Source: a virus. From it: 34,275 nucleotides of DNA. This document shows positions 1 through 29,653 of this stretch, in pieces. The stretch spans positions 1-34,275 of IMG/VR virus record IMGVR_UViG_3300005821_000006. The stretch is one strand, 5' to 3'. The stretch's first letter is position 1, and each line of letters opens with the position of its first letter. The position numbers and the translations under genes are program-made. The notes under the pieces are model-generated. The model saw nothing but the letters and a program-made list of their open reading frames with translations, was not told where the DNA came from and ran no database searches.

Positions 1-1
1 C

Positions 2-3000
2 ACCTTCCCGCAGGACTATTGGGAGCGCTGGGACGCTACAACTTCAAGTGGCATGTCCTTCCTTACTGACGAAGCTACCGGCGACTGTAATGGTTGGTTA
101 GGAGAGACAGGCAACGTTTGGCTTGTAGGCTCTCCTGGAACGAACTACCCAGTATGGACACCAGGCAAGATGACCTTTGCTGGCTCTGGAGACAAAGCCC
201 TGTACACCCCTGTTGTCACGGGCGTCTTCTCTGGCAACCCCCGCGCCGTGTTCTGTGCAGGACAACTCAACACCGCCTCCCCCGCCAACGGCTCCTTCTT
301 CGCAGGGCCTACCGCCTATATTCGTTTTGAAGACCTCACTGATGAGATGAACTTCGCCTACAACGATGGCACCGCGAATAACGACGCCCCTACGAACTCC
401 CTTATTGACTCCCCTATCGCGGTTGGTTACTCCACCGATATGACCGACATTAACTGGTGGTGGGGCGGGAATAGCAAGCACACCGCCACGGTCAGCGGTG
501 GCTCCTTCAACGAGGCTCTAGCAAACCTCTATGTCGGGATGGCGAACGCCTCAGCCACAACCACGATGGACGGCGAGCTGTACGAAGTCATCGTCTACGA
601 CCGTCACGTCACGGACGCAGAGGCAGAGCAAATCCTCGCCTACCTCTCCGCCAAGTGGCAGGCTCAGAACGAGGACAGCGCATCAAGTGTTATAGCAACC
701 TACGATGGGCTGGGCCACACCTGGAAATCCGATGGGCCTGACCCACAGGGATTGCAGCTGGAAGGCTTCACCCCGGTCAACCACACAGTTACTCCGCTCC
801 GCAATGCAGACGCACCTAGGATCCAGAACCTTCTTCCCGAAGACTACGTCGGACGGTGGGATGCTACGACCTCAGACGGTATGACCTTCACCACGTCCGA
901 AGCTGTCGGGGACATTGCAACTTGGGTAGATGAAACAGGAACCTACACGTTCGACGACGCCCTCACAAATGACCCAGTATGGAACCCAGGGGAAGTTTAC
1001 TTCGACGGGGACTCTGGGCTACTTGAGGTTATCTCTGCTTACAACGCCGACGACATGACCGTCATATTCTGCGGTGGGCAAATCGACGGCGTATCAGGAT
1101 ATGACTACATCCTCAACACTCCGTTTGAAGCCTTCGCAGGGAACCAGGGCGGCACGGATGAGAAAATAGCGTTCGTCATGAATTCCGCAGGCTCCCCAAT
1201 ATACAAGACCACGAACGACCTTACCACTGTACCACTTGTCCTAGCCCTTACAAACACGCACAACGGCGTGGATGACAACGACAAGGCTGCCTACCTGGGC
1301 AACACGCTTCTGGGAACGTCACTTGCTAACAGCGACGTGCTCAGCGACGACAACACCCTAGCGGTCGGCTACAATACAGCAACGTCAAACGCCGCGACAG
1401 GTTACATGTACGAGCTTGTCGTGTACGACCGCGTGCTAAGTGCCCCGGAGCTTGCGGGCGCAATAGACTACCTCTCCCACAAGTGGCAGGCACAGAACGA
1501 GGACTCAGCAACGACCTCAGTCTCAACCGCCTCAACAGGCAGAGACCAGAACTTTGATGACAACCGCTACCCAGCCAACACCTGGGGCTCCCTCATTGCC
1601 TTCCACTTCGACGCAGCTCAGAGCGGAGACATGACTTTCGACACGGGTGACGCAACGAGCGGAGGCACCGTGTCAAGTTGGACCGACTTGACAGGCTCGG
1701 TCACGATGGACACAACGGTCTCGGGGGACACGGCACTTGACTACAACACGAACGTCAAAGGCTACCCCTCCCTCAGCGGTGGGGCTGGGCAAAGTCTAAG
1801 GAGCGCAACTGTTTCCTACTCCACCACGAACGGGCACCAACGCCTTCACTGGGCGGTCGGCTCCTTCGAGCAAGCATCAACGGATAACGCACCCTGCGCG
1901 CCCTTCGGCAACCGCATCTGGCTGGCGGCAGAGAGCAGCCACTACCAGGACCTCTACACTGGCGCGGGCGTGGCGTCCTCTTACATCAGTGGCACCCCCC
2001 AGACCTTTGTCCCACTGACGGTACGCGATGCGACCGAGGGGATCCACATCGTTGTGTGGCGAACCACCGTCAACGGCACGAACGGGGATGTGGAGAGCTG
2101 GGCGGCTGGGCTCAAGATGCCGCTTCGCGTTTCAACTACCGCTGACTCCGGCGCAGAAGCAGTAACCGCTTGTGCCAGCGCATCCTCGACCTTTCATTCA
2201 ACCGGAAGCTGCTACGAGATGGGCGGAGTGGACGGAGCGGGAACCCCCATCACGGACGGGGCGGTCGAGGGCCTCATCCAGCATCTGTGCAATAAATACG
2301 ACGTTGACTATATGCCTGACACGACTCCGATGGACATCGGGCTCCACGCGCGCAGCACGACTGCCCTTGCGGCTACCGACACATGCCTCTGGCACGAGCC
2401 GTCAACCATGACGCCAACCTCCTGGGCGCTTCATCCTTACTGCGCCGCACTCCATACCACTCCAGCGAACTTTGCGATGAGCCCAGCAGCTGGCGCAGTG
2501 CCGCTGGAGAAGAGAACAGGCACCCTTGGGAAACCAACTTTTCGCTCAACTGAGGGTATGACCCAGTTCATGGAGAGCGACAACTCCTACACCTCCACAG
2601 AGACCACAGACTTCCCAGCTGACACGCTAGGTATGAGCACTTTTGGTGTAATGAGGCTTGACCCAGCCACCGTCGCCGCATCAGGAGCACGCACAGGAAA
2701 CGGCATCTGCCACGTCAGGTTCAGCGGCACCAGCGATACCACCCTGCAGGTCCTTGCGAGCAACGTCTCAAAGAACTGGGCTAAAGCAAACGATTGGATT
2801 ATCATCGGAAACAGCTACGCCTATGACGACGACGGCACCGGCACTGAGGGCTACCCAGGCGCTACTGATGGAGGCCCCGGCGCATACTACTACTGTAATG
2901 ACGAGACGGTGCTGACCGCCGCTACTCCCGCAGCCACGAGCTACACCGTAGAGAACTGGGTCAACTGGGATGTCTCAGATGGGGTAGCCCATATGTCGGA

Positions 3001-3094
3001 GATAGTCGTCTTCAAACACCCCCTCACTATCGAAGAAATCAACGAGCTGAAGAAGTACTTCCAGTATAAGTACAACTACCTCTTCGACACCTAG
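2..3094 (+). CDS. Large virion adhesin / tail-fibre-like protein with LamG-type repeats (5' partial)
   Basis: The reading frame is open to the left edge, so the first in-window ATG (53) is internal: the codons before it (ending RWDATTSSGM) match a second copy further on (RWDATTSDGM). At least 1030 residues are visible. Two modules of about 276 residues each open with WDATTS and close with YE(V/L)(I/V)VYDR...YLS.KWQAQNED, the usual end of concanavalin-A/LamG-like jelly-roll domains in phage appendage proteins. A third, diverged module starts near base 1601 (FHFDAAQSGDMTF), and the C-terminus ends in a related motif (EIVVFKHPLTIEEINELKKY). Such domains bind glycans, so receptor binding at the virion surface is the likely role. 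It lies directly before the lysis block, as terminal tail genes often do. Structural class fairly sure; exact tail component unknown. Confidence 0.8.
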   Translation, partial: TFPQDYWERWDATTSSGMSFLTDEATGDCNGWLGETGNVWLVGSPGTNYPVWTPGKMTFAGSGDKALYTPVVTGVFSGNPRAVFCAGQLNTASPANGSFFAGPTAYIRFEDLTDEMNFAYNDGTANNDAPTNSLIDSPIAVGYSTDMTDINWWWGGNSKHTATVSGGSFNEALANLYVGMANASATTTMDGELYEVIVYDRHVTDAEAEQILAYLSAKWQAQNEDSASSVIATYDGLGHTWKSDGPDPQGLQLEGFTPVNHTVTPLRNADAPRIQNLLPEDYVGRWDATTSDGMTFTTSEAVGDIATWVDETGTYTFDDALTNDPVWNPGEVYFDGDSGLLEVISAYNADDMTVIFCGGQIDGVSGYDYILNTPFEAFAGNQGGTDEKIAFVMNSAGSPIYKTTNDLTTVPLVLALTNTHNGVDDNDKAAYLGNTLLGTSLANSDVLSDDNTLAVGYNTATSNAATGYMYELVVYDRVLSAPELAGAIDYLSHKWQAQNEDSATTSVSTASTGRDQNFDDNRYPANTWGSLIAFHFDAAQSGDMTFDTGDATSGGTVSSWTDLTGSVTMDTTVSGDTALDYNTNVKGYPSLSGGAGQSLRSATVSYSTTNGHQRLHWAVGSFEQASTDNAPCAPFGNRIWLAAESSHYQDLYTGAGVASSYISGTPQTFVPLTVRDATEGIHIVVWRTTVNGTNGDVESWAAGLKMPLRVSTTADSGAEAVTACASASSTFHSTGSCYEMGGVDGAGTPITDGAVEGLIQHLCNKYDVDYMPDTTPMDIGLHARSTTALAATDTCLWHEPSTMTPTSWALHPYCAALHTTPANFAMSPAAGAVPLEKRTGTLGKPTFRSTEGMTQFMESDNSYTSTETTDFPADTLGMSTFGVMRLDPATVAASGARTGNGICHVRFSGTSDTTLQVLASNVSKNWAKANDWIIIGNSYAYDDDGTGTEGYPGATDGGPGAYYYCNDETVLTAATPAATSYTVENWVNWDVSDGVAHMSEIVVFKHPLTIEEINELKKYFQYKYNYLFDT
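29..1504 (+). repeat. Tandem protein-domain repeat, period 828 bp
   Basis: The codons for the WDATTS motif start at 29 and again at 857. The codons for the KWQAQNED motif start at 653 and again at 1481. Both anchor pairs are exactly 828 bases apart (276 codons), and the DNA around them is still clearly similar (for example AAGTGGCAGGC at 653 and 1481). This indicates an in-frame tandem duplication of one domain with no net length change between these anchors. Confidence 0.8.
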
Positions 3095-3098
3095 GCCC

Positions 3099-3126
3099 TT
3101 GACAACCCCTCAGGGGTGGCTATCTT
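3099..3126 (+). promoter_or_regulatory. Sigma70-type promoter of the lysis block
   Basis: TTGACA at 3099-3104, 16-base spacer, TATCTT at 3121-3126. The spacer holds the dyad ACCCC-TCA-GGGGT (3105-3117). The start codon of the next gene (3134) lies 7 bases after the -10 box and has no Shine-Dalgarno sequence. Confidence 0.55.
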
Positions 3127-3133
3127 GTAGCTC

Positions 3134-3544
3134 ATGGACATAGTAAACAAGCTATTGGACCTATTTAGGTCTCTAAAAGGTGAGGGTAAAGATGGCAAGA
3201 AGAGTAAAGCCGGGATCATCCTTGCTGCCCTTACTGGTGCTGTTGCCCTTACTATTATCGGTATCCTCTCTTTCCGTGCTTGGAAGACGGGTAAGAAGCT
3301 GGCTAAGCTTCAGCACGAGAAAGCCGTAACCGACGAAAAGGCTGAACAAGCCGTCGCGGATGCGATGATAGCCGAGAGCGAAGAGGAGAAGCAAGCCGCT
3401 CAAGCTCAGATTGAAGAGGTTCGTAGGAAACTCCTAGCGCTGGCAGAGGCCATGCAAGAGGCGGAAACTACTTACGAGCAGGCCAAAGAGACGATCCACG
3501 AGATCAAGAACTGGGACGATTTTGATAAGTTGACGAGGGGATAA
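3134..3544 (+). CDS. Single-pass membrane protein with long coiled coil (inner-membrane spanin or holin-like candidate)
   Basis: 136 residues. A short amphipathic N-terminus (MDIVNKLLDLFRSL) and a Lys-rich patch are followed by one hydrophobic segment at about residues 27-47 (IILAALTGAVALTIIGIL). The rest is a highly charged Ala/Glu/Lys/Gln-rich helix predicted by eye as a coiled coil to about residue 125. This matches the layout of Rz-type inner-membrane spanins, though a structural or holin-related role is possible. It shares one base with the next gene and sits two genes before the amidase endolysin, which supports a lysis role. No Shine-Dalgarno is seen before the ATG; a promoter -10 box ends 7 bases upstream, so translation may be leaderless. 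Confidence 0.6.
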   Translation: MDIVNKLLDLFRSLKGEGKDGKKSKAGIILAALTGAVALTIIGILSFRAWKTGKKLAKLQHEKAVTDEKAEQAVADAMIAESEEEKQAAQAQIEEVRRKLLALAEAMQEAETTYEQAKETIHEIKNWDDFDKLTRG

Positions 3545-4044
3545 TGTTTAGAACAGCTATACTAGCGCTGGCACTTCTGGTGCCTGTTGGTGCTTTCGCA
3601 CAAGACCCACTAGAGGGTCTTCATGGCGACGGCACTATTGTCGTAGAGGAACTCAACGAAGGCTCTAAGCTCCCCGCAGGTATCCCCTGTGAGGTAGAGG
3701 GAACCCGCTACCAGTGCTTTACTCTGGACGAGATGAAGGACCTTCTCATGCTGGAGAACGAACTCCGGTACTTTGAGACGAACTACATCAACATGTTCCA
3801 GAAGGTCTCACTCCTGGAGGGTGAGAATCGCCTGTTAAAAGGCCAGCTCTTCTCGGTGGAAGAACAGCTCTCCGTTATGACCTTGGACAGAGAGCGTATA
3901 TTCTTGAAGTGGGAAGAGGAAAACAAGCTCCGTTTGCAGTTAGAAAACAAACCCAACTTCGGCAACCCGATCGCTTGGGGGATAGTTGGAGTAGAAGCCT
4001 CCGTTATAATTGGTTTGATCCTCGGTATGGTACTAGGCGGCTAA
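3544..4044 (+). CDS. Exported coiled-coil protein with C-terminal membrane anchor (lysis-block protein)
   Basis: 166 residues. The N-terminus MFRTAILALALLVPVGAFAQD is a typical signal peptide with a probable type I cleavage site after AFA; there is no lipobox cysteine. A central heptad-rich region (about residues 60-135) looks like a coiled coil. The C-terminus (about 144-165, IVGVEASVIIGLILGMVLGG) is a transmembrane helix. Signal peptide plus periplasmic coiled coil plus C-terminal anchor resembles a unimolecular spanin, except that those normally carry a lipobox. The start overlaps the previous stop by one base (TAATG), so the two are probably translated together. Lysis role inferred from layout and position next to the endolysin. 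Confidence 0.55.
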   Translation: MFRTAILALALLVPVGAFAQDPLEGLHGDGTIVVEELNEGSKLPAGIPCEVEGTRYQCFTLDEMKDLLMLENELRYFETNYINMFQKVSLLEGENRLLKGQLFSVEEQLSVMTLDRERIFLKWEEENKLRLQLENKPNFGNPIAWGIVGVEASVIIGLILGMVLGG

Positions 4045-4135
4045 ATCTTTCTTTCCCCATATGGGTGGACCGCAAGATAGGATTTTACGTGAGTATGGTC
4101 CGTATAGATGACGTGTATCACTTCACGTTCATAAT

Positions 4136-4150
4136 AAAGGGTTGGTAATG
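4136..4150 (+). promoter_or_regulatory. Ribosome binding site that sets the endolysin start
   Basis: AAAGGG at 4136-4141 lies six bases before ATG 4148. A possible upstream TTG at 4142 would directly abut this site, so ATG 4148 is the better start. Confidence 0.6.
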
Positions 4151-5059
4151 CAATACAACGATAAAGGCAGGAACGTAAGAGAGCTTCAGCTGCGCCTCAT
4201 CAGGGCAGGCTATGAGTTGCCTACGTTCGGCGCGGATGGTCACCTAGGCGAAGAGACCTGGGAAGCCCTAAAAGACTTCGCCCTAGACAACGAGTTTGTA
4301 TGGGCTCCTGAGATAGACGATTCTGTGATAGCCGCCATGGCCGCCCAGATGGCTCCTGTCACGACAGATGCTATTGCCAAGGTTCCCTACTACGACCTCA
4401 TCCACGAGCCTATCCCCTCCAGCGCCAGGCGCAAGTTCAACATACGTGCAGGCAGGGTTGTAAAGAGAGTGCCTACAGTTGTGGATGGCATTACAATCCA
4501 CCAGACAGGCATCAGGTTCGGGATAAACGAGAGGCAGATTGCCCGCGCCAATGGAGACGAGAAGCTGGCTTTGGCACAGAGAGCCAAGAAAGTAGCCTGC
4601 CACGCCCTCTCCTTTGACGGCTTCTACTCTAAGACATACCCCCTTGACTGGTACATCTACCACGGCAACGGGCTGAACAGAAAGACTTTGGGTCTTGAGA
4701 TTGACGGACTATATCCGGGGCTAAGGGACGACCCGCTTACCGTTGAACGAGAGGACCTCGCGACCTTGTGGGAGGGGACATCTACCACATTGTCAGACAG
4801 CCGTGTAAAGGCGGCTCGTGCCGCGTTGCGTTACTTAGTAGAGGAAGGCCGAAAGCTCGGCATGCCTATCAAATACATTTACGCACACCGGCAGTCTAGC
4901 TCCACCAGACGAAGCGACCCAGGCGAAGAGATCTGGCGTAAGGTCGTAACCGAATACGGAGTAGCCGTTCTGGGACTGGAGACCCGTACAGGGTTTACAA
5001 CAGGCATGGGACGCCCTATCCCTGATAACTGGGACGCAGACGGACGCGGCCCTTACTAA
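4148..5059 (+). CDS. Endolysin: peptidoglycan-binding domain plus zinc N-acetylmuramoyl-L-alanine amidase
   Basis: 303 residues from ATG 4148. Residues about 4-50 form a PG_binding_1 domain (GRNVRELQLRLIRAGYE..FGADGHLGEETWEALKDF). The catalytic part is an Amidase_2-like (PGRP/T7 lysozyme fold) domain. Its likely zinc ligands are His118 (TIHQTG), His247 (YAHRQS) and Asp257 (SDPG), and the conserved second-strand histidine is H152 (CHALSF). The enzyme would cut the amide bond between N-acetylmuramic acid and the stem peptide at the end of infection. No signal peptide is visible, so release should need a holin, consistent with the preceding membrane-protein genes. The domain order (binding N-terminal, enzyme C-terminal) is common in phages of Gram-negative hosts. 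Confidence 0.85.
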   Translation: MQYNDKGRNVRELQLRLIRAGYELPTFGADGHLGEETWEALKDFALDNEFVWAPEIDDSVIAAMAAQMAPVTTDAIAKVPYYDLIHEPIPSSARRKFNIRAGRVVKRVPTVVDGITIHQTGIRFGINERQIARANGDEKLALAQRAKKVACHALSFDGFYSKTYPLDWYIYHGNGLNRKTLGLEIDGLYPGLRDDPLTVEREDLATLWEGTSTTLSDSRVKAARAALRYLVEEGRKLGMPIKYIYAHRQSSSTRRSDPGEEIWRKVVTEYGVAVLGLETRTGFTTGMGRPIPDNWDADGRGPY

Positions 5060-5505
5060 TGACCACTAGACACCCAGTATCTTATTTCACGTTTCAAGAG
5101 AAGACGGCCTTCATTCCTTTGAAGTTCCTCTATCCTGAGTGCAAGGTTCTGATCGAAGACCAGCCTCAGATGTTCCCCTTGAAGTGCTTCCAAACAGACG
5201 GGTGTCCTGTGAATGCCAACTGTGGCGAAATCATCGTGCGCAGAGTCCACTATCTCTTTGAGCAAGTGGTGCCCCAGTCTGAGGTGCTAGTCTGCTACTA
5301 CAAATACCCTGACCGCCCGAAGTCCATAAGAGGCGCAGTTTTCAATAGAGACCTCCAGCCCCCAGCTATTAGCATCCTGAACCCCTTCGCATTGAAGAAG
5401 TTTATGAAGGGTGGAATCACCTACCAGTGGTTCCCCACAGACGAGTTCCTGTACATGGGCAGCGAGAAGCAGATAATACCCGTAGGTGGGCTAATCAAGC
5501 CATGA
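5059..5505 (+). CDS. Hypothetical protein
   Basis: 148 residues, soluble, no recognisable motif. The ATG overlaps the endolysin stop by one base, and its own stop overlaps the next start (ATGA), so it is translationally coupled on both sides and real. It has four cysteines (residues 29, 43, 49, 55), three of them clustered around CFQTDGCPVNANC, which could bind a metal, but no standard zinc pattern is clear. It lies between lysis and recombination genes, so context does not fix a role. Confidence 0.7.
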   Translation: MTTRHPVSYFTFQEKTAFIPLKFLYPECKVLIEDQPQMFPLKCFQTDGCPVNANCGEIIVRRVHYLFEQVVPQSEVLVCYYKYPDRPKSIRGAVFNRDLQPPAISILNPFALKKFMKGGITYQWFPTDEFLYMGSEKQIIPVGGLIKP

Positions 5506-6944
5506 AGGCCAAGATCACCATACACGGCTCTCAGTCGGTCCTGAAGGGGGACTACGACAAGAAAGAGATCCGTAAAGTAACATCATACCCGGTCCAGGGC
5601 TTCCAATATTCGAAGGCTTGGAAGTCTGGGAGGTGGGATGGCCGCAAGCACCTGTTCAGGCCCCGCAGTGGTGCCTTCCCAACAGGCCTTTGCGAGGCCG
5701 TGAAGGCCTCTCTCACGGCTTCCGGCGTCGAGGTGGGGGTAGAGGACCTACGTGTCCCACCAACCCCTACAGAAGCCGGTTTTGACCTCATAGGTATTAC
5801 TTACGACAGCCCCTATGAATACCAGTTAGAGGCCTGCCAGACCATGGTAGATGCCAAGCAGGGGGTCGTGAAGGCCGCTACGGGCTCCGGTAAGACCGAG
5901 ATAGCCTGCGCCGTGACCCAATACCTGGGCCTCAAGACCCTTTTCATGGTTCCCAGCCGCGAATTGATGTATCAGTCTCAGAAAAGGTTTATGAAGCGCC
6001 TAGGGCTCACCGAGGCTGAGATAGGGGTCGTGGGCGACGGAAAGTGGCTCCCAGGCAGCCTGGTGACAGTTGCCAGCATCGACACCCTAGAATCCCGCAT
6101 GAGCACCATCGAGTGCATGGACCTGATCAAGAGCACCGAAGTCCTGTTCCTTGACGAATGTCATGGCGTAGGAAGCGACACCTACTATACTGTGGCAACT
6201 TTGTGTCCTGCGTTCTATCGCTTCGGCCTTTCTGCCACACCCCTAGACCGCACAGACGGAGCTAATCTCATGCTCCTGGCAGCCACAGGGGAGATGATCA
6301 TAGATATCCCGCTCAAGCAGCTCGTGGAAAGCGGAGTGTGCGCCAAGGGCAAGATCATCTTCGATAAGATCACCGAGCCTGTGCTCAAGAAGAACATCCA
6401 ATACGCCACCGCCTACAAGCAGGGAGTGTCGGAGAACCCTCAGTTGTTGGGCAAGGTCATAGAGTGGACCGAGATATTCCACGACCTAGGCTTGGGCACG
6501 CTCATCCTGTGTGAGGAGATCCAGCACGGGAAGCTGATTGATGATGCCCTGTGGACAGAGGCCTCCAAGATGATCCCTCACCAGTTCATCCACGGGACAG
6601 AGGACATGGACGTTAGGAAGGCAGCCATTGAGAGCTTCGACAACCGAAACCTGCCCGTTCTGATCGCCTCTACCATCATGGACCAGGGTGTGGACGTGCA
6701 GACTATTGACGCCCTCATACTCGCTGGCAGCCGCAAATCTAAGATCCGCACCCTTCAGCGCCTGGGCCGAGGTCTCAGAGGAGAGAAGCTGATCGTGGTG
6801 GACTTCAGCACCTTCTGCCACAAGTATCTTTTAGAGCATTCCATGAAGCGGTTGAAAGACTACAAGGCTGAGGAGTGCTTTCCTATTTACGCTTCAGGAC
6901 CAGACGCCGAATTGGTGAAAAAGCTATGGAACGAAGACGATTGA
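5502..6944 (+). CDS. uvsW: UvsW-like SF2 DNA/RNA helicase
   Basis: 480 residues from ATG 5502, which overlaps the preceding stop (ATGA). The frame is open further upstream but overlaps the previous gene. The N-terminal ~70 residues (SYPVQGFQYSKAWKSGRWDG) resemble the small N-terminal domain of T4 UvsW. Helicase motifs follow in order: Walker A ATGSGKT at 126-132, DECH box at 218-221, SATP at 244-247, and C-terminal motifs including STIMDQGVDV and QRLGRGLRG. In T4, UvsW unwinds R-loops and branched DNA and promotes the switch from origin-dependent to recombination-dependent replication. RecA, SbcCD and SSB homologues downstream fit that role. It is shorter than T4 UvsW (587 residues). Confidence 0.85.
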   Translation: MKAKITIHGSQSVLKGDYDKKEIRKVTSYPVQGFQYSKAWKSGRWDGRKHLFRPRSGAFPTGLCEAVKASLTASGVEVGVEDLRVPPTPTEAGFDLIGITYDSPYEYQLEACQTMVDAKQGVVKAATGSGKTEIACAVTQYLGLKTLFMVPSRELMYQSQKRFMKRLGLTEAEIGVVGDGKWLPGSLVTVASIDTLESRMSTIECMDLIKSTEVLFLDECHGVGSDTYYTVATLCPAFYRFGLSATPLDRTDGANLMLLAATGEMIIDIPLKQLVESGVCAKGKIIFDKITEPVLKKNIQYATAYKQGVSENPQLLGKVIEWTEIFHDLGLGTLILCEEIQHGKLIDDALWTEASKMIPHQFIHGTEDMDVRKAAIESFDNRNLPVLIASTIMDQGVDVQTIDALILAGSRKSKIRTLQRLGRGLRGEKLIVVDFSTFCHKYLLEHSMKRLKDYKAEECFPIYASGPDAELVKKLWNEDD

Positions 6945-6946
6945 AG

Positions 6947-6955
6947 TGGTATACT
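6947..6955 (+). promoter_or_regulatory. Extended -10 promoter element
   Basis: TGGTATACT fits the extended -10 consensus TGnTATAAT. The -35 region is poor. ATG 6961 follows after five bases with no Shine-Dalgarno, so a transcript from here would be leaderless. Confidence 0.4.
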
Positions 6956-6960
6956 GAGTA

Positions 6961-7401
6961 ATGGCTAGAGCTATCCACATCGCGGACCTCGTTGCTGGCA
7001 ATGAGGTTTACGGTCAGATGCGGCTGGGATTGGCCATTGTAAAGATGCGCAGGGTTGACGGCTACCTTTATGGTGTTGTCCCCAGCAAACCACAAAAGGC
7101 AGGCCCTGACGATCTAACTCGTTGGCAGGGCACGGTTCTTGTGAATAACACAACAGAACAAGTACTAACCGTACAACTAACTAGAACAGATTCAATGATG
7201 CGAGCAATGAACCGAACTACTCTTATGACGGATTTGCACTATTCCGCCCTTACTCGTCTTAGGCTCATCAGCCAGATCAACCACCCACCACACGATTACA
7301 ATCTTACCTTCCCTGCTAACTTAGAGGATGCGGCGTTCAAGCCGTACAAAACGTTTACTGAGGTTCTTATCCCCAGTGGCGTTACAGGGTACAATGCATG
7401 A
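6961..7401 (+). CDS. Hypothetical protein
   Basis: 146 residues, no recognised domain, no membrane segment or signal peptide. The N-terminal half (VAGNEVYGQMRLGLAIVKMRRVDGYLYGVV) looks beta-rich, like small SH3/OB-type barrels, and could be a small binding domain; this is inference from pattern only. It ends in an ATGA overlap with the J-domain gene. The start lies just after a putative extended -10 box. Base composition and codon use are slightly more AT-rich than in the flanking helicase genes. Confidence 0.65.
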   Translation: MARAIHIADLVAGNEVYGQMRLGLAIVKMRRVDGYLYGVVPSKPQKAGPDDLTRWQGTVLVNNTTEQVLTVQLTRTDSMMRAMNRTTLMTDLHYSALTRLRLISQINHPPHDYNLTFPANLEDAAFKPYKTFTEVLIPSGVTGYNA

Positions 7402-7865
7402 TAGTGGTTCCTGGCCCTGGTGACTTTTTTCAACTCACCCAACTTCCTTCCCCAGCGAAGAGATGGGTGCGTTATGACATCCCCACTGAGTATCGTTACT
7501 ACGACTCAGAGGTAGGGTATTGGTTTGTTCACAAGAAACATTTGATGCAAGTCATTGAATTATCATATAAAGCCACCGGGCATGTTGACTGGTCAGCTCT
7601 TCCGCCTTATCTTCAAATAGAAGCAGCGCGAGAGAAGGAGAACTGGACTGTGAACAAAAAGACCGCTACCCCACCTCTTACCCCTAGCATGATTCTTAGG
7701 GATGCCTACACAACTCTACATCTCCTTCCTAGTGCTCCTGACAGTGTTTTGTCTGCTGTTTGGCGCAGCCTTGCCCGAGTATCCCACCCGGATCAAGGTG
7801 GCGATCCAGAGGACTTCCGCCGTTATAGTGAGGCGTATGACCTCATTAAGGAGAAGAAGAAGTGA
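7398..7865 (+). CDS. J-domain (DnaJ-like) protein
   Basis: 155 residues. The C-terminal ~55 residues form a J domain: DAYTTLHLLPSAPDSVLSAVWRSLA, then RVSHPDQGGD with the diagnostic HPD tripeptide at 130-132, then a last helix FRRYSEAYDLI. The N-terminal ~95 residues (FFQLTQLPSPAKRWVRYDIPTEYRYY, WFVHKK) are not recognised and have no G/F-rich or zinc region, so this is a type III J protein. J domains stimulate the ATPase of Hsp70 (DnaK) and direct it to a client. The gene is coupled by 4-base overlaps to both neighbours and lies one gene before the DnaB-type helicase. It may recruit host DnaK to load or remodel the phage replisome, as DnaJ/DnaK do for lambda P; that function is inference. Confidence 0.75.
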   Translation: MIVVPGPGDFFQLTQLPSPAKRWVRYDIPTEYRYYDSEVGYWFVHKKHLMQVIELSYKATGHVDWSALPPYLQIEAAREKENWTVNKKTATPPLTPSMILRDAYTTLHLLPSAPDSVLSAVWRSLARVSHPDQGGDPEDFRRYSEAYDLIKEKKK

Positions 7866-8494
7866 GCGACATCCAAGAGATTCTCAAGAAGAACCGTCTT
7901 CTCAAGATAAGCCGCAGTGAACGTTTCACAGAAAACCAGGAACAGGACGTTTCGAATAAAGCTTCTCATGTCAAGCGTATCCTCGGAGGCGAGGATAGTG
8001 GCGATGCAGCTCCTATTGCACTTACCCTTATAAAAGACACTTACTACAACATGCTCTCCACATACAAGGGCAAGTTCGTATCGCACCCCGTAGCCATGAA
8101 TAAGAAGAGCCTAGCTCTTTGGACCCGAGTAGAAAGCTGCAGAGCACAGGCTGACTGTGACGCAGACCGCTACTTGAAGGCACAGTTCGTATATTTCGAC
8201 AAGACCTTTGGGAAGGCTCCTGCAGTTGAGCAGCTTGCCACAGAGGGTGCTATCGACCGTGCGCTTGAGTTTACCGGCTCCACCAAGGGCCGAGTCCTGG
8301 GAAACATCCGTAAAGTTGATGTTTCTAAGGCAGATATGTTTCGCGAATGCGAGAAGACACTTCAGCGGATGATGGCGGCACAGGGCTGCAACCGAGAAGA
8401 GTTCTACCGCAGATTCGTATTGACAGGAATATTCGGCCTCCCTGACGACTTCTTGAGGGCAGATCCGACATACCAGAGGGTAAAAGCAGAGTAG
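7862..8494 (+). CDS. Hypothetical protein upstream of DnaB (helicase-loader candidate)
   Basis: 210 residues, GTG start overlapping the preceding stop (GTGA). Mostly helical and soluble with a basic N-terminus (ILKKNRLLKISRSERF). No P-loop is present, so it is not a DnaC/DnaI-type AAA+ loader. The middle (VESCRAQADCDADRYLKAQFVYFDKTFGKAP) and C-terminus (REEFYRRFVLTGIFGLPDDFL) give no family match that I recognise. Position directly before the replicative helicase and after a J-domain gene makes a helicase-loading or replication-accessory role worth testing, but nothing in the sequence proves it. Confidence 0.65.
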   Translation: MSDIQEILKKNRLLKISRSERFTENQEQDVSNKASHVKRILGGEDSGDAAPIALTLIKDTYYNMLSTYKGKFVSHPVAMNKKSLALWTRVESCRAQADCDADRYLKAQFVYFDKTFGKAPAVEQLATEGAIDRALEFTGSTKGRVLGNIRKVDVSKADMFRECEKTLQRMMAAQGCNREEFYRRFVLTGIFGLPDDFLRADPTYQRVKAE

Positions 8495-9977: not shown

Positions 9978-10374
9978 CCTAACAGCACATAGCGAGAAGA
10001 TCGTATGCAGCTTCTGTCAGCAACCCAGTACTGTCCTCAATAAGGCAGTCCTCTCCGTAGAGACTGGTAAAGCTATATGTACGCAATGCCTCGCTATAGC
10101 GGAGCAAGCAAGCGATATGGTCCCTAAGGGTGCCGTGAAGTGCCTGTCGTGTAAGCACTACGATGGCGTAAGTGTTGAATATGACAAAGCAACTGTCCGA
10201 TGGGTATTCTCTGGGATAAACAAGGAAGGGACGGTAGGCTATCGAGTCACGGCAATAGCGGGATCCTGGGATCTCAATTCGATCCCGAAAAAAGCTACCT
10301 GCATCAAATGTTTCTGCTCCATACCTATTGCCAACCTCAAGTTGTCGCCTTATATAACACCTACGAGGAGATGA
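9970..10374 (+). CDS. Stand-alone ClpX-type C4 zinc-binding domain protein
   Basis: 134 residues. Residues ~10-50 (KIVCSFCQQPSTVL, then AICTQCLAIAEQ) follow the N-terminal zinc-binding domain of bacterial ClpX: CSFC, about 20 residues with the LI/VETG turn, then IC..C and a short helix. The AAA+ ATPase part is absent. A second CxxC pair (KCLSCKHYD) and a third (TCIKCFC) lie in the C-terminal half and may form another zinc ribbon. In ClpX this domain dimerises and docks adaptors and some substrates such as lambda O, so a free copy could compete with or redirect host ClpXP. The start overlaps the helicase gene by eight bases. Domain call good; function inferred. Confidence 0.65.
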   Translation: MTDLTAHSEKIVCSFCQQPSTVLNKAVLSVETGKAICTQCLAIAEQASDMVPKGAVKCLSCKHYDGVSVEYDKATVRWVFSGINKEGTVGYRVTAIAGSWDLNSIPKKATCIKCFCSIPIANLKLSPYITPTRR

Positions 10375-10379
10375 GTATG
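10365..10379 (+). promoter_or_regulatory. Ribosome binding site that decides the 10377 start
   Basis: GAGGAG at 10365-10370 directly abuts an in-frame ATG (10371) but is six bases from the next in-frame ATG (10377). Normal spacing favours 10377. Confidence 0.55.
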
Positions 10380-10988
10380 AGCAGGAATATGAAACACCGA
10401 AACCCCTGGCCCGATGAGCCTTTCCGAATTGACTACGGTTCCCCCGAGTTCACTCTTGAACATGGAGGTGAGCGCACGAAACGCGTCCTTCACGAGGCAC
10501 AAGCCGCTGGCTACTTCGACTGCCCCGACAACATGAAGGTTTCCATATGTCTGCGGGTCAGCTTCCAAGAGGCTGGTGAGTTCCAACATAATCGAACCGC
10601 CTGGCACTACGACAGGGCGTACCGTGGCTGGGTCTACATCGACGGAGAGAGCCCCGCAGAGGTCATGGTGGACGCTAAGGAAGGCCCCTTCACTGACACC
10701 CACAAGGACCCTGGCGGAGACCCGTTCAACATCGAGCCCATCCCCAAGGCTACGTGGGTCGGACATGCGCTGCTGTGGCACCGCTGTCCGGTACAAGCGA
10801 AAGCCGGTTGGCGATACTTCATCCGTGTCCTCTGGAGCCCCTCAAGCCCCTCCAACAAGCTCACGCAGGAGGTTGGTCCGGTGCCTCGTCGAGAGCCGCG
10901 AGAAGAAACGCTGAAAAAAGAGAACACACAGTGGGGCTACCCACTGGACGCGCCAGATAATGTCGCGGACCCACGGGTGAAGAAATGA
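10377..10988 (+). CDS. Possible Fe(II)/2-oxoglutarate-type oxygenase (double-stranded beta-helix) protein
   Basis: 203 residues from ATG 10377; the frame extends upstream but overlaps the previous gene. A His-x-Asp pair (H77-Y-D79 in AWHYDRAYRGW), a distal histidine 56 residues later (H135 in LLWHRCP) and basic residues R146/R150 (WRYFIRVLW) fit the HxD...H...R pattern of 2-oxoglutarate-dependent dioxygenases, a fold common in phages, where members modify DNA, nucleotides or proteins. The C-terminal ~45 residues are Pro/Glu/Arg-rich and probably disordered. I cannot assign a substrate. It could also be an unrelated cupin-like structural protein. It heads an island of accessory genes between helicase and primase. 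Confidence 0.4.
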   Translation: MSRNMKHRNPWPDEPFRIDYGSPEFTLEHGGERTKRVLHEAQAAGYFDCPDNMKVSICLRVSFQEAGEFQHNRTAWHYDRAYRGWVYIDGESPAEVMVDAKEGPFTDTHKDPGGDPFNIEPIPKATWVGHALLWHRCPVQAKAGWRYFIRVLWSPSSPSNKLTQEVGPVPRREPREETLKKENTQWGYPLDAPDNVADPRVKK

Positions 10989-11200
10989 AGAACTACGCAA
11001 GACCACTGGCAAACATATTCTTCGCGTGGCTTATAGGACTGGTTGTCCTTTCTATCATTGTCCTTGTGAGTGTTTTCGTCACCCTCCTGATTGTCCACAC
11101 CTTTGGTACGTCGGCGCCTGTGGCTGCAGGCGTATTCCTGGCGGCCAGCGCTGTGATTGCAGCGGTGTTCTACCAGCTGTTCTTTGACGGGGGGTTCTGA
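10985..11200 (+). CDS. Small two-helix membrane protein
   Basis: 71 residues with two hydrophobic helices (about residues 10-37 and 44-66) and a very short polar loop. The size and topology would fit a class II holin, a host-membrane modifier or a superinfection-exclusion protein, but it is far from the endolysin gene. ATGA overlap with the upstream gene and TGATG overlap with the downstream one show it is part of the same operon. Confidence 0.7.
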   Translation: MKNYARPLANIFFAWLIGLVVLSIIVLVSVFVTLLIVHTFGTSAPVAAGVFLAASAVIAAVFYQLFFDGGF

Positions 11201-11460
11201 TGGCTACCTATAGCGGAGAGACAGAGAAACGCAACGCGGCAACGGAAATGGGAATCGCGGAAGACCAAGTCTTCCTAAAGACCAAAGACGACGCTGGCTT
11301 CTCTAACACACTCTACATGTCGCCGGAATCCGCGCGGGAGATGGGGCGATACCTCATCGGACTCGCGGACCTCATGGACCCTATCAAGGACACAGGCCCC
11401 AAAGAGGGCGACCCGTGCTCCTCGGGGATGGGCATGGCTAGCAATAAGCGGGGGTTCTGA
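11200..11460 (+). CDS. Small hypothetical protein
   Basis: 86 residues, soluble, no recognised domain. The central part (QVFLKTKDDAGFSNTLYMSP) looks like a short beta-hairpin region, followed by an amphipathic helix (ESAREMGRYLIGLADLM). Both ends are coupled by one-base TGATG overlaps, and the 3' ends of this gene and the previous one share GGGGGTTCTGATG, which may be a repeated coupling signal (11189-11201 and 11450-11462). Confidence 0.6.
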   Translation: MATYSGETEKRNAATEMGIAEDQVFLKTKDDAGFSNTLYMSPESAREMGRYLIGLADLMDPIKDTGPKEGDPCSSGMGMASNKRGF

Positions 11461-11993
11461 TGTTTGAAGACAAGGATACACTACTACAGGCGTGCGGCGG
11501 GCGATGGGGGGACTACGAGATTTCGAAGACCCACCTCGGGCTGCATATCGTGTTTTTCTGGTCGTGGGCGCTGCCGCTCTATGGGGTGCTGTGGCTCTTG
11601 TCGAGACCATTCCACTACCTGGGGGAGCTGGCTGAGGTGGTTTTCCAGACCTGGAAGATGAACCAAGACCCACCACGTAGAGACTACGTACACGATTTTG
11701 ATGAGCTTTGGGGCTCTGCTGAGGGCTGCTGGGGGACCTGCTGTAAGGAAGACGAGGAACGATTCGACTCTGAGGAGTTGGCTGCGATGGTTTCGCAGGC
11801 CTACTACACGGACGAGGAGGGGGTAGACCATCGCCTCCACCGCTTCAGTAAAGGCGAGAGAGTCCTGTTCTTCGGTGAACTCTATGAGATCTATTGCTTG
11901 GACGAGCCCTCTTATATTTTGCGCAAGCCAGATGAGGGCGCTATGTCGAGTGTTTCGGCCTCGGAAAATGACCTGGAGATGGTCAATGACTGA
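11460..11993 (+). CDS. Hypothetical membrane-associated protein
   Basis: 177 residues. One hydrophobic stretch at about residues 27-48 (LHIVFFWSWALPLYGVLWLL) is probably a membrane anchor. The rest is acidic and soluble, with a Cys cluster (EGCWGTCCKED) and a C-terminal region (RFSKGERVLFFGELYEIYCLDEPSYIL) reminiscent of a small beta barrel. No family recognised. It overlaps the protease gene start by eight bases, so the two may be co-translated and could work together, for example anchor and secreted partner; that is speculation. Confidence 0.6.
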   Translation: MFEDKDTLLQACGGRWGDYEISKTHLGLHIVFFWSWALPLYGVLWLLSRPFHYLGELAEVVFQTWKMNQDPPRRDYVHDFDELWGSAEGCWGTCCKEDEERFDSEELAAMVSQAYYTDEEGVDHRLHRFSKGERVLFFGELYEIYCLDEPSYILRKPDEGAMSSVSASENDLEMVND

Positions 11994-12876
11994 TAACCTA
12001 CTGACTAAAATCATCATGGGAGTCCTTGGGTTGGCTCTCTTGGCGGCTTGTGTGGTGTTCGGGAATGGCTGCGGCGAGGACTGGGATCCAGGCTTCTTCT
12101 GTAAGGGAAGCGGGGACGAGCCTGTTCTCATGGCTGGTTCCCAGACCCAGTCGATAGTCAATGGAACTCCAAGCATCGACAGACGTGCCACGGTGCATGT
12201 CTCTACTGGCTGCTCTGGTGTCGCTATGGACCCTTATGTGGTGCTCACGGCTGCTCATTGTGTGTTTCCGGGGGAGATGACTGTAGGGCTTAGCCCCAGG
12301 GGCTACCGTATAGCGGTAGACGATATCTACGTCCACAGAGCCTACGAGGGGTGGCCTCACTGGGACATTGCTGTACTGCACCTAGCAGAGCCTATTGAGG
12401 GTCCGTTCCCTGTTGGGATCTACGACCCTGCTGAGGGTGGCTACGCTCCTGACCTTCGATACTATTGCTCTCACCTGGTCGCTCAGGGTTGGGGGAAAAC
12501 GGGAGACAATCCTCCTGGGCTCTACGAGCTAGAGTATGAGGTGGGCACCGCCACCTTGACCACTCTGGTTACTGCGGCATCAGACGACCCAGCTACCTCT
12601 GCTGTCTGTAATGGCGACTCTGGCGGCCCTCTGTATGCTTACACCTACGACCGAGAGGTTCCTGGCAAGATCAATATGTGGGTGGCTGGTATCGCAAGCA
12701 CGGGTAGTCCTGATGGCTGCGTAGGACGAGGGGAACATGTGTACCTTGAGAACATGTCTCCGTGGCTTAGAGAAGTACGCTACTGCCTGAATGGTGGAGA
12801 AGACCGTCTTTGGGACTTCTACGTTATTGGCGGAGGCGGCTACAGAGGCTCCAGTTGTGAGGAACTAAGGAAATGA
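11986..12876 (+). CDS. Secreted trypsin-fold (S1) serine protease, probable lipoprotein
   Basis: 296 residues from ATG 11986 (GGAG seven bases upstream); the frame is open further upstream but overlaps the previous gene. The N-terminus has a hydrophobic segment (9-25) with lipobox LAAC (Cys22; a second Cys at 29). The chymotrypsin-fold core follows: SIVNGT at 56-61 in the place of the zymogen activation site IVGG, catalytic His91 (TAAHC), Asp127 (DIAVL), GWGK at 168-171 and Ser212 (GDSGGP). The residue six before the serine, equivalent to trypsin Asp189, is Ala206, so classical Arg/Lys specificity is not expected. It should act in the periplasm or at the cell surface. Such proteases are rare in phage genomes; possible roles are receptor shaving, superinfection exclusion or envelope breakdown. 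Confidence 0.85.
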   Translation: MTDNLLTKIIMGVLGLALLAACVVFGNGCGEDWDPGFFCKGSGDEPVLMAGSQTQSIVNGTPSIDRRATVHVSTGCSGVAMDPYVVLTAAHCVFPGEMTVGLSPRGYRIAVDDIYVHRAYEGWPHWDIAVLHLAEPIEGPFPVGIYDPAEGGYAPDLRYYCSHLVAQGWGKTGDNPPGLYELEYEVGTATLTTLVTAASDDPATSAVCNGDSGGPLYAYTYDREVPGKINMWVAGIASTGSPDGCVGRGEHVYLENMSPWLREVRYCLNGGEDRLWDFYVIGGGGYRGSSCEELRK

Positions 12877-13001
12877 AAAGGCCTAAAGCAGAACCTGGAT
12901 TGCCCCCTTGCCCATCATGTGGTGCTGAGGAGCGCTACCGCTTGGGGACCAACTACGCCCGCTGCCTAGTCTGCGGGAAAACACATAAGGACGTAGAATA
13001 A
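12873..13001 (+). CDS. 42-residue zinc-ribbon protein
   Basis: A short ORF starting at an ATGA overlap with the protease stop and ending at a TAATG overlap with the next start, with AAGG just upstream. It has two CxxC knuckles 18 residues apart, CPSCG and CLVCG, that would hold one zinc ion. The length is normal for phage mini zinc ribbons, which commonly bind nucleic acid or a host protein. Function unknown. Confidence 0.65.
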   Translation: MKRPKAEPGLPPCPSCGAEERYRLGTNYARCLVCGKTHKDVE

Positions 13002-14503: not shown

Positions 14504-14515
14504 GAGGGAATATGA
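14501..14515 (+). promoter_or_regulatory. Translation initiation module, copy 1
   Basis: TAAGAGGGAATATGA contains a good Shine-Dalgarno (AGAGGGA) and the ATG at 14512. An identical 15-base module is at 24803-24817 before an unrelated gene. Confidence 0.5.
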
Positions 14516-14982
14516 AGAAGTTACTATTGATTGCGCTTTTAGTCGGCTGTGGGGGAAATGTTCCGCAGGCTACCACTACTCCTGACCCTGCTGAGCAGGT
14601 TGTTCAGGATGAGGAGAACAGTTACATCGGAGTGTTGGACGCGCTCTACGGGATCGTTGAAATGAACGTTGAGACGTTCGCTGCGTTCTGCACTGAGATT
14701 AACGGCATTTTCAACATATCTGATGAGTTCTCCACCTGTCTGGGGACGGATGGTTCGGGCTTCGCTCTCAGAACCGCTAATGGTGTATCCGTTGGTGCTG
14801 CTCTCCTTGTTCCTGCAGAGCACGGACAGGATCTGGCCGATGCTGTAGTGGAGGCCGTAGGCTCTCCTGAGGTCTACGAGGGTGCTGCTGTTTGGGATCT
14901 CACTGAGCACTCTTTGGTCATGGCACCTCTCCCTAACGGTATGTGGTTGTTGGTCTTGGAAAAGGCAGGAACGAGTTTGTAA
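14512..14982 (+). CDS. Putative lipoprotein
   Basis: 156 residues. The N-terminus MKKLLLIALLVGCGGN is a textbook lipoprotein signal with lipobox LVGC (Cys13), followed by a Thr/Pro/Glu-rich linker (ATTTPDPAEQVVQDEEN). The mature domain of ~120 residues looks alpha/beta and contains two cysteines (CTEINGIF.., TCLG) that could form a disulfide in the periplasm. No family recognised. Candidate roles are superinfection exclusion or envelope modification; it is oddly placed between primase and dUTPase. It ends in a one-base TAATG overlap with dUTPase. Confidence 0.65.
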   Translation: MKKLLLIALLVGCGGNVPQATTTPDPAEQVVQDEENSYIGVLDALYGIVEMNVETFAAFCTEINGIFNISDEFSTCLGTDGSGFALRTANGVSVGAALLVPAEHGQDLADAVVEAVGSPEVYEGAAVWDLTEHSLVMAPLPNGMWLLVLEKAGTSL

Positions 14983-25928: not shown

Positions 25929-26230
25929 ACATAAAACAACTATTCAACATGGCGCTCATTAGTAGGCTCACAAGCTTGCTATGCCTGGGCATATGCTTTT
26001 ACTGCTACTATGAGGGGCTGGATAGAGTGACAACGCTGGCTCTTGCCTTTTCCTTTACTGGATGGATTCTTGGCTCTTTCTTTCTGGGACTGTTTCACAG
26101 CGCCCAGGCCGTTGCGCTTGAGAACGAGCTTCAGACAGCCCTACACTCGACCCTAGAGGTTGTAAAAGATGTAACGGATGGGGAGGAAAAGCCCTCTCAT
26201 CCCCTTTTCAAGGACTATGACAATGAGTGA
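25925..26230 (+). CDS. Two-helix membrane protein
   Basis: 101 residues, GTG start overlapping the kinase stop (GTGA). Two hydrophobic helices at about 10-32 (ISRLTSLLCLGICFYCYY) and 38-60 (TLALAFSFTGWILGSFFLGLF), then a soluble C-terminal half. Could be a host-membrane modifier; no family recognised. Confidence 0.6.
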   Translation: MNIKQLFNMALISRLTSLLCLGICFYCYYEGLDRVTTLALAFSFTGWILGSFFLGLFHSAQAVALENELQTALHSTLEVVKDVTDGEEKPSHPLFKDYDNE

Positions 26231-26639
26231 AGAAGAGAACTTCGACAAGGACGGATTAGGCAACCCTATCATGTCCAGCGGGACGATAGCAAATGCTACG
26301 GACGAGCAGCTGGCAGGAGAGAAAGAAGAACTGGATCCCGAGCAGGTTGAGGCAGCTCAGCGTATGTACCTTTCCGAGGTCATGCGACAGCTCTCCACCT
26401 CTGAGCGGTTCAAGCGTTTCTTCGAGATCAACTATCAGGTACAGACGTACTTTGACAAGGAAAAGCAAACCTTCGACATTAGGCTCATTGAGCTTCCACC
26501 TGAGTTGGCCTCTAAGAGGCTTCACGAGTTGGCCACTAAGCATGTAGAAGCGCATACACCTATGGTGGAAACCGCCACTATGGCTGACGTAGCTGCTCTC
26601 AACGACTTCGAGAAGCGAAATCCCGAGGTAAAGAAGTAA
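26223..26639 (+). CDS. Hypothetical protein
   Basis: 138 residues from ATG 26223, which lies about 9 bases after AAGGA and overlaps the previous gene by eight bases; ATG 26217 is an alternative. The N-terminal 45 residues are acidic and flexible. The core is alpha/beta (YLSEVMRQLSTSERFKRFFEINYQVQTYFDKEKQTFDIRLIELP), ending in a helical tail. This layout is like short phage proteins of unknown function. Confidence 0.6.
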   Translation: MSEEENFDKDGLGNPIMSSGTIANATDEQLAGEKEELDPEQVEAAQRMYLSEVMRQLSTSERFKRFFEINYQVQTYFDKEKQTFDIRLIELPPELASKRLHELATKHVEAHTPMVETATMADVAALNDFEKRNPEVKK

Positions 26640-26854
26640 TGACCAAAACCGAGTTTGCAAACCTAGCCGAATGTGAAGGCTGGGAACACGTTCTAACGTC
26701 TGTTGGTCCTGGGCAACTCGATGATGCAGGCCTGGCCGAGGCTCTATCGGACGCTCAGGAAGCTTTCAAGATTCTTGTGGAAGCAACCCCAGAGGCAACA
26801 TACACTTTCTTTGATGACGATGAGGATGATTTAGAAGAATTGGATTTTGGCTAA
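26639..26854 (+). CDS. Small acidic hypothetical protein
   Basis: 71 residues, one-base overlap with the previous gene. Helical (LADAGLAEALSDAQEAF-like middle) with a C-terminal acidic stretch (FDDDEDDLEELDFG). No domain recognised. Its last codons are overlapped by the TTG start of the endonuclease-like gene. Confidence 0.55.
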   Translation: MTKTEFANLAECEGWEHVLTSVGPGQLDDAGLAEALSDAQEAFKILVEATPEATYTFFDDDEDDLEELDFG

Positions 26855-27509
26855 GACGAGTGTAATCAAAGTAGGACAAACCTACGGGTCGTGGCTGGTG
26901 TTGGAGGATCACGGACGCAAGTTCTATTGTGTCTGTACCGCCTGTGGGAAGACTAACAAGTTCCTTCCCGGCTACAACCTCACTTCTGGGAGAACCAGAA
27001 TGTGCAAAGCGTGCGCGACTAGGCTAAAGAGGGAAACTCACGGCATGTCGGACTCCCCAGAGTACAATACTTGGGTGCATATGAACCAACGCTGCCACAA
27101 TCCTAAGAACAAGGACTACCCGCAGTACGGAGGTCGAGGCATCACAGTTTACCCTCTGTGGAGAAACAGTTTTGAGGCTTTCTACATGATGATAGGGAAG
27201 CGCCCCCACATAGACGATACCATTGAGCGTATCGACTACAACAAAAGTTACGTGCCTGGGAATGTCAAATGGGCTTCTCGGCAGGAACAAGTGCTCAACA
27301 AGAGTGACAATGTGAATCTAGAGATAGATGGCGTTACTAAAACGGTATCCCAGTGGGCTGCAGACAGCCCCGTAAGTGGTTTTACCATATACAAGAGAAT
27401 CAAGAGAGGATGGCTAGAAACTTATGGCCCCTATAAAACAGTATTCGAGCCATCCGCAAAAACAGTGGAGTTGGCCCCCACCCCCGACGACGAAACCGAA
27501 GATGATTAG
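26847..27509 (+). CDS. Free-standing HNH/AP2-type homing-endonuclease-like protein
   Basis: 220 residues from TTG 26847, the only usable in-frame start. The N-terminal zinc ribbon (CVCTACGK..., MCKAC) is followed by THGMSDSPEYNTWVHMNQRC, YPQYGGRGITVYPLW, FEAF and IERIDYNKSYVPGNVKWAS. This string of motifs belongs to a common phage family annotated as HNH endonuclease or AP2-domain protein. The C-terminal WAADSPVSGFTIYKRIKRGW is a NUMOD-like DNA-recognition helix unit. Such genes are usually selfish elements that cut related phages lacking them. Motif match good; cutting activity not shown. Confidence 0.7.
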   Translation: MAKTSVIKVGQTYGSWLVLEDHGRKFYCVCTACGKTNKFLPGYNLTSGRTRMCKACATRLKRETHGMSDSPEYNTWVHMNQRCHNPKNKDYPQYGGRGITVYPLWRNSFEAFYMMIGKRPHIDDTIERIDYNKSYVPGNVKWASRQEQVLNKSDNVNLEIDGVTKTVSQWAADSPVSGFTIYKRIKRGWLETYGPYKTVFEPSAKTVELAPTPDDETEDD

Positions 27510-27948
27510 GAAGGCCGAGACCGTGGTATGCTATGAATGTGGAAACTACTTCACTCCGACCGGCCTCAGTATGCACGAGGGAAGCGAGAAGTGTCGCCTG
27601 ACCAAGCTAGCCAAGCCCCTGAAGGTGGAGACTCTTGAAGAACAAGCACGAATGCAGGCCAAAGGAAAGGCTTGTATCGCCAAGAACGTAGCCAAGGCTA
27701 TACACTCCAGAAACCTATCGGAGATGTGCGGCCTGGAAAAGGCCAAGACAAAGCTTTTACACACTGACATGGATTGCGCGGTACTCGAAGAGTATTGGGT
27801 CCATGAGTGGGTGTTTCGTATTTGGGAAGTACAAAACAGGACCGGGTATACCAGGACGGCTTACTCTCTACTAGAAAACCTCAACAATATGCCTAAGGAC
27901 GAGCGTGAAAGCGAAATCGGCCTAATCATGTTAGGAATGTACGCCTGA
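27502..27948 (+). CDS. Zinc-finger protein of unknown function
   Basis: 148 residues from ATG 27502, overlapping the previous stop by eight bases; the frame is open upstream only within the previous gene. The N-terminus CYECGNYFTPTGLSMHEGSEKC is a C2HC-type finger (two Cys, His, Cys), a nucleic-acid-binding pattern. The remaining ~110 residues are helical (EEQARMQAKGKACIAKNVAKAIHSRNL...VHEWVFRIWEVQNRTG). Possibly a regulator of transcription; not a recognised family. Confidence 0.6.
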   Translation: MIRKAETVVCYECGNYFTPTGLSMHEGSEKCRLTKLAKPLKVETLEEQARMQAKGKACIAKNVAKAIHSRNLSEMCGLEKAKTKLLHTDMDCAVLEEYWVHEWVFRIWEVQNRTGYTRTAYSLLENLNNMPKDERESEIGLIMLGMYA

Positions 27949-28451
27949 TGGCTAGAGCAGGAATCAACTCCCGTGACAAGGGCGCTAGAGGCGAAGGCCA
28001 AGTTTGTGCTCTCCTAAAGAAGTGGTGGGGCTCTGACTTTGCGAGAACTCCCAGCTCCGGTGGGTTCAAAACCAAGAAGTTCCGAGAGGACTGGAATGCC
28101 GAGGGCGATGTTGTCACGCCTGACGAGACGTTTCCGTTCTCAGTGGAAGTGAAGTGGCAGGAGGATTGGACCCTAGACCAGCTTCTGACAGCGCCCAAGA
28201 ATAAGATCTGGGACTGGTGGGAACAGGCTAAGCGAGAGACAGCCTCAGACAAGCTGCCCTTGTTGGTGTTCAAGAAGAATCGACACCCCTGGTTCGTTAT
28301 GATGACAGAGAACGGTATAGCCACCGCTCCACAAACAGACTTTATGAAAAGCTCAATGATACGAGTTACCGACAGGCAAGGCCAGACAGCCTATATCAGG
28401 TTGTTTGACGACTTGCTGAAAGAGCACAAGAAGCTCTGGGAGCGAACATGA
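27948..28451 (+). CDS. PDDEXK nuclease (Holliday-junction-resolvase-like)
   Basis: 167 residues, one-base overlap with the previous gene. The N-terminus NSRDKGARGEGQVCALLKKW has the conserved Glu16; RTPSSGG follows; then D54 (EGDVV) and E67-x-K69 (SVEVKW), the full E...D...ExK catalytic set of Hjc/PDDEXK enzymes. After that come a hydrophobic strand LLVFKKN and a Trp-rich region. In a phage with RecA, UvsW and SbcCD a junction resolvase is expected for clearing branches before packaging. It could instead be another PDDEXK DNase. Confidence 0.7.
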   Translation: MARAGINSRDKGARGEGQVCALLKKWWGSDFARTPSSGGFKTKKFREDWNAEGDVVTPDETFPFSVEVKWQEDWTLDQLLTAPKNKIWDWWEQAKRETASDKLPLLVFKKNRHPWFVMMTENGIATAPQTDFMKSSMIRVTDRQGQTAYIRLFDDLLKEHKKLWERT

Positions 28452-29340: not shown

Positions 29341-29353
29341 ATAGGCGTATTAC

Positions 29354-29648: not shown

Positions 29649-29653
29649 TACAA

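Follow-up and report, generated by a model that had tools for sequence, protein, structure and literature searches.

Phages are known to alter the surface of the cells they infect mostly by means of small binding proteins or sugar-modifying enzymes. The superinfection-exclusion lipoprotein Llp of phage T5 blocks FhuA from the periplasmic side by binding and without proteolysis (PMC9586334). An exported phage protease of the S1A type is encoded in an accessory region of Rhodococcus phage Shagrat (gp109, 'serine protease', OQ938576). Furthermore, a trypsin-like selenoprotein family was predicted in 2008 from marine reads, comprising 9 Sec and 128 Cys sequences of no assigned source (PMC2398784); a review of 2022 gives no accession for it (PMC9312934).

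We have analyzed the window, i.e. the whole stretch of 34,275 nucleotides of the IMG/VR virus record IMGVR_UViG_3300005821_000006, and the protein P0001 encoded therein at 11986-12876 on the plus strand. This protein of 296 amino acids is predicted to be an exported and membrane-tethered S1A (chymotrypsin-fold) protease. It shares with peptidase S1A (PF00089; COG5640, secreted trypsin-like) the catalytic triad, the GDSGGP motif, the IVNG N-terminus, the fold, and the equivalents of Cys42-58 and Cys191-220; it differs in being phage-borne, in its export and tether segment, in having Ala instead of Asp at position 189, and in lacking the Cys168-182 pair. Like Llp and the T1-type Cor proteins, P0001 is phage-encoded with predicted export, and it is predicted to act in the envelope of the infected cell. 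Llp and Cor, however, are small non-enzymes which bind the receptor, whereas P0001 has an S1A catalytic domain and does not belong to this type of lipoprotein. Shagrat gp109 has a signal peptide without a lipobox and is located on another branch of the tree. The trypsin-like selenoprotein of the Global Ocean Sampling (GOS) survey (PMC2398784) has the S1A domain in common with its distant relative P0001, which is itself no selenoprotein of this type: Cys245, corresponding to chymotrypsin Cys220, is encoded by TGC (12718-12720, plus strand) and not by an in-frame TGA, so that this codon is no Sec codon in the window phage. A trypsin-like domain is also common to the LmuA and Avs1b proteases of anti-phage systems, but P0001 is found without partner genes and in a different architecture; assignment to Lamassu LmuA was rejected, as only residues 67-139 matched (PADLOC, 20 bits, profile positions 9-85 of 425).

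Protease domain and N-terminal segment

The search with Pfam family Trypsin (PF00089), proposed in an earlier note on this DNA, yielded 59.2 bits for P0001 (E=6.7e-16; gathering cut-off 20.6 bits), and matches among PDB sequences (phmmer) were chymotrypsin C, elastase, and kallikreins. An AlphaFold2 model of moderate confidence (pLDDT 71, pTM 0.68) consisted of a helix at residues 3-27 followed by a beta-rich body. S1A structures ranked first when this model was compared to the PDB with Foldseek (E about 1e-11); matches in a viral library were S1-type proteins mostly from eukaryotic viruses, and no phage was named among the best 50. The similarity is far beyond chance, and P0001 is almost certainly an S1A protease.

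The earlier note had described an intact triad, an activation-like IVNGT site, and an Ala residue at the position of trypsin 189, and all three were recovered. By translation, His91 (LTAAHC, 12256-12258), Asp127 (12364-12366), and Ser212 (GDSGGP, 12619-12621; all plus strand) form the triad, which is invariant in an alignment of P0001 with 19 other S1A proteins. The activation-like site is I57-V-N-G60 (12154-12165, plus strand; translation and alignments), Ile57 being equivalent to Ile16, and Asp211 is present as well. A Ser residue precedes IVNG in place of an Arg/Lys site; therefore, an activation cut other than a trypsin-like one would be needed. The base of the S1 pocket is formed by Ala206 (12601-12603, plus strand; translation and PDB matches), hence P0001 was not assigned to the trypsin specificity subgroup, which is defined by Asp189, and specificity for Arg/Lys is not expected. 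With Ala at position 189 and apparently His at position 226 (hand alignment), the cleavage specificity appears unpredictable from sequence.

The N-terminal export segment (11986-12072, plus strand), delineated by the AlphaFold2 model, a motif test, and alignment, contains the hydrophobic helix of residues 3-27 and two candidate lipid-bearing residues, Cys22 (12049-12051) and Cys29 (12070-12072). It had been claimed that P0001 carries an export signal with a lipobox LAAC; the export segment held up, and the lipobox turned out to be less clear. Tested against a pattern modelled on PROSITE PS51257, Cys22 (LLAAC) fits only the core of the lipoprotein motif, the first seven residues are free of Lys and Arg, and the hydrophobic helix extends beyond this cysteine. 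Cys29-Gly30 is invariant among P0001 and its three closest relatives, where it takes the position of their GC-G or AC-G lipobox; Cys29 itself has Asn at position -2. Neither cysteine sits in a canonical lipobox. Cys22 is a plausible lipid-bearing residue, Cys29 rather than Cys22 may be lipidated, or the N-terminal segment may be an uncleaved anchor; each of these arrangements places the enzyme in the envelope. Membrane tethering of P0001 is considered likely, and an envelope location together with proteolysis is strongly predicted.

According to the alignment, residues 30-56 form a putative propeptide (12073-12153, plus strand) containing Cys39. Both Cys39 and Cys161 are present in P0001 and in the related phage proteins L151 and L152, and both are absent from the relative L117. 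This pattern suggests a Cys39-Cys161 disulfide which, like the propeptide link of chymotrypsinogen, would keep the activated domain tethered.

We propose that the infected cell exports the protease, with either an N-terminal lipid-modified cysteine or an uncleaved hydrophobic segment as the anchor. After export, the zymogen would be cut before Ile57, the disulfide may tie the active domain to the anchored propeptide, and the tethered enzyme would, in the course of infection, cleave a protein of the host envelope or cell surface. The altered surface would then bar later phages from adsorption or injection, i.e. cause superinfection exclusion by receptor shaving. For the explanation as a whole, an exported, envelope-anchored S1A protease altering the infected-cell surface, our doubts slightly outweigh our confidence; receptor shaving, the most likely benefit among those considered, is put forward tentatively as the specific role.

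Genomic setting and possible roles

The window is a phage contig with genes for DnaB, primase, PolA, UvsX, SbcCD, a gp32-like SSB, a UvsW-like helicase, and an amidase endolysin (4142-5059). A second contig represents the same phage (99.96% identity over 21,108 bp) and contains the same protease gene. Immediately 5' of the protease ORF a Shine-Dalgarno-like GGAG is located, its start overlaps the preceding gene, and its stop overlaps the following start (ATGA); the gene is therefore part of a tight operon. The preceding gene (11460-11993) encodes a protein of 177 amino acids with a hydrophobic segment, for which no homologue was found outside the window phage, and the following one (12873-13001) a 42-amino-acid CxxC/CxxC protein. 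Further upstream, genes for proteins of 205 amino acids (10371-10988; weak match to phrog_1843) and 71 amino acids (10985-11200; two apparent membrane helices) are located; all four are on the plus strand and lineage-specific. Codon usage of the protease gene is within the range of the phage core genes and gave no sign of recent import. Both an accident of assembly and a recent import are made less likely by the overlaps at the two gene ends and the core-like codon usage.

Related phages, with PolA 62-78% identical to that of the window, keep dnaB and primase and usually a zinc-finger gene and a 79-amino-acid gene, with a variable gap in between; in L016 and L017, dnaB immediately precedes primase. 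The protease gene and the flanking genes for 205, 71, 177, and 42 amino acids are absent from the five loci spanning the dnaB-primase gap (L006, L014, L016, L017, L126) and from L007 and L010, which cover part of it. Because the gaps of the relatives are without these genes and the core genes are conserved, the protease is, judged by gene content, lineage-specific cargo in a variable, replication-proximal gap. A lipoprotein-like gene of the window (LVGC-G; 14512-14982, plus strand), located between primase and dUTPase, is shared with the closest strains, L004 and L005, and is absent from the other relatives.

Variable replication-proximal gaps often house host-takeover and anti-defence genes, and P0001 could accordingly destroy an exported or membrane-bound host anti-phage protein. 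We regard such counter-defence as improbable, given that no defence partner or target was identified and that the weak match to LmuA reflects the shared trypsin domain only.

We prefer superinfection exclusion because the location of the gene is with replication genes and not with those for lysis or structure, because the enzyme is apparently tethered and not released, and because exported lipoproteins are a known tool of exclusion. The assumption that P0001 is made early with replication genes stands as far as the location is concerned; its timing is deduced from position, and a scan for promoters and terminators returned nothing above chance.

A role in lysis or a benefit for the host would fit nearly as well. 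As a lysis helper, the tethered protease would act late in infection, cutting proteins of the outer membrane, the periplasm, or the S-layer and thereby aiding endolysin and spanin in opening the cell. The amidase endolysin of the window phage is in line with this, as are the second, different S1-type lipoprotease of contig G055, located near tail and lysis-like genes, and the small membrane proteins adjoining the S1A gene in L048. However, the protease gene of the window belongs to the replication block, at a distance of about 7 kb from the endolysin gene, and marine T4-like phages also have their lipoprotease beside replication genes; we consider this function unlikely. A virion component, e.g. 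a tail-borne protease digesting surface layers at entry, is far less probable still: phage entry enzymes exist, and a frame-broken S1A relic adjoins the tail genes of another phage contig (L056:7965-9169), but the protease gene is distant from structural genes, and P0001 and its relatives possess an export segment. Prohead maturation proteases belong to folds other than S1A and have no export segment; this assignment was rejected.

S1A proteases in other phages

A tblastn search of 50,697 GenBank phage records with P0001 and three other phage lipoproteases gave no match, and the same search with queries of the marine family and a Streptomyces trypsin gave one S1A match, Rhodococcus phage Shagrat. 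Pattern scans of IMG/VR revealed that several unrelated phage groups carry S1A genes, most of them with a lipobox-like start; these scans used short peptide patterns, so that all counts are lower bounds, and some contigs may include cellular DNA. Hence, the statement of the earlier note that S1 proteases of this secreted type are unusual in phages applies to the GenBank phages with their single match, whereas IMG/VR has several unrelated groups of lipoprotein type.

The closest relatives of P0001 are the phage proteins L151 (38% identity) and L152 (36%), followed by L117 (28%); they share with it the GC-G, the [IV]V-N/Q-G, and the triad. Other groups comprise marine T4-like phages (L061-L092), neighbours of RuvC-like genes (L153, L157-L164), and scattered others. 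In a maximum-likelihood tree, whose long terminal branches leave the deeper order unresolved, P0001, L151, and L152 form a clade with support of 98/92, and of 94/96 with inclusion of L117. Marine and RuvC-side groups are separate clades; Shagrat is joined to an actinobacterial protease (96/81). Since these branches are separate, S1A genes were likely acquired by phages several times independently. A scan of genome contigs with P0001 plus the Streptomyces trypsin yielded only three matches, all actinobacterial, and a plasmid search only distant Streptomyces and Photobacterium proteases.

The sporadic, cargo-like distribution of S1A lipoproteases, some of which look host-derived as in the pairing of Shagrat with an actinobacterial protease, would agree with an ecological function, namely an extracellular protease that feeds the infected cell or repels predators and competitors during phage replication. 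Such a contribution to host fitness is rather improbable; no integrase is among the identified genes of the window, and little benefit is expected within a short lytic infection.

Tethering itself looks selected, as S1A genes of the lipoprotein type are met repeatedly in phages that are not related to one another. If a tethered protease indeed alters the infected-cell surface, it would be a different, enzymatic route to surface change and could explain the loss of receptors on infected cells. With such genes occurring repeatedly among unrelated phages, the idea of a surface protease becomes testable in laboratory phages.

The contig G056 (34,384 bp), which carries L117, belongs to a strain of the window phage: positions 26103-34275 of the window and 1-8176 of G056 are 98.4% identical. 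The second contig of the window phage, G001, aligns to G056 over a further stretch at 98.7-99.5%; overall, the strain is 98.5% identical over 26 kb. The L117 gene encodes a lipoprotein S1A protease 28% identical to P0001 (L117:26-730, corresponding to G056:C1:33676-34359, minus strand). G001 ends before this gene, which is located about 25 kb to the right of the window. The window phage species thus probably encodes both proteases, which were seen on separate near-identical contigs and never on one. Contig G055 harbors two S1-type lipoproteases of different subfamilies (L167:10996-11736 and L169:675-1370, both minus strand), with a small lipoprotein gene overlapping the start of one of them.

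Marine phage lipoproteases with in-frame TGA

Among the marine T4-like lipoproteases, the codon of Cys220 was read as TGT at 14 loci and as TGA at 18 (L067, L069, L070, L072-L077, L080-L083, L085, L089-L092; e.g. L067:4048-4050), and the sequence following TGA is conserved. A hairpin formed by nucleotides 13-18 and 27-32 counted from TGA was 92.9% paired in 14 distinct TGA sequences; as compensatory changes, 5 cells were changed on both sides, as compared to 0 of 500 shuffles. No pairing excess was found at this position in 12 distinct TGT sequences. With random synonymous codons, 0 of 5000 trials reached the observed pairing in the TGA set, as compared to 1039 of 5000 in the TGT set. The marine TGA lipoproteases with their SECIS-like hairpin are therefore probable phage selenoproteins.

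G017, a marine phage contig of this group (113 kb) with TGT in its own protease gene, encodes a tRNA-Sec (RF01852, 69 bits) with the anticodon TCA (L119:1501-1595, corresponding to G017:C1:103633-103723). Furthermore, a thioredoxin gene with W-TGA-GPC is present in G017 (L146, TGA at 1597) and G025 (L147, TGA at 1597), and G025 contains both a TGA protease and a TGA thioredoxin. The TGA thioredoxin is a probable second phage selenoprotein. Almost every TGA/Cys match in a TGA scan of the marine phages was an antisense artefact, and only protease and thioredoxin remained on the coding strand. A search of twelve phage contigs for SelB was negative; the marine phages would therefore rely on that of the host.

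The marine phage lipoproteases match the description of the GOS trypsin-like selenoprotein (PMC2398784), and we propose here to attribute this family of 2008 to phages. No paper on phage selenoproteins was found in the literature searched, which covers the journals incompletely. With this branch, a marine selenoprotein family that had been known from reads alone since 2008 acquires a source, and phages appear to be both users and suppliers of selenocysteine decoding. More generally, envelope-tethered S1A proteases may be a recurring, largely undescribed phage cargo, acquired several times, sometimes with two per phage, and acting on the infected-cell surface, with selenocysteine in one marine branch and one phage supplying tRNA-Sec; we regard the case for this generalization as evenly balanced.

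Several marine phages have a probable gene for ribonucleotide reductase directly upstream of the lipoprotease gene or close to its upstream side (L049:5864-8618, L052:5581-9023, L098:2333-6197, L159:3772-6567). The Cys191-Cys220 pair, in which Sec substitutes Cys in the marine lipoproteases, is missing as a disulfide from three lipoproteases (L098:4965-6197, L157:5848-6606, L160:5845-6606), which show HGDSGGP and WFGDSGGP motifs.
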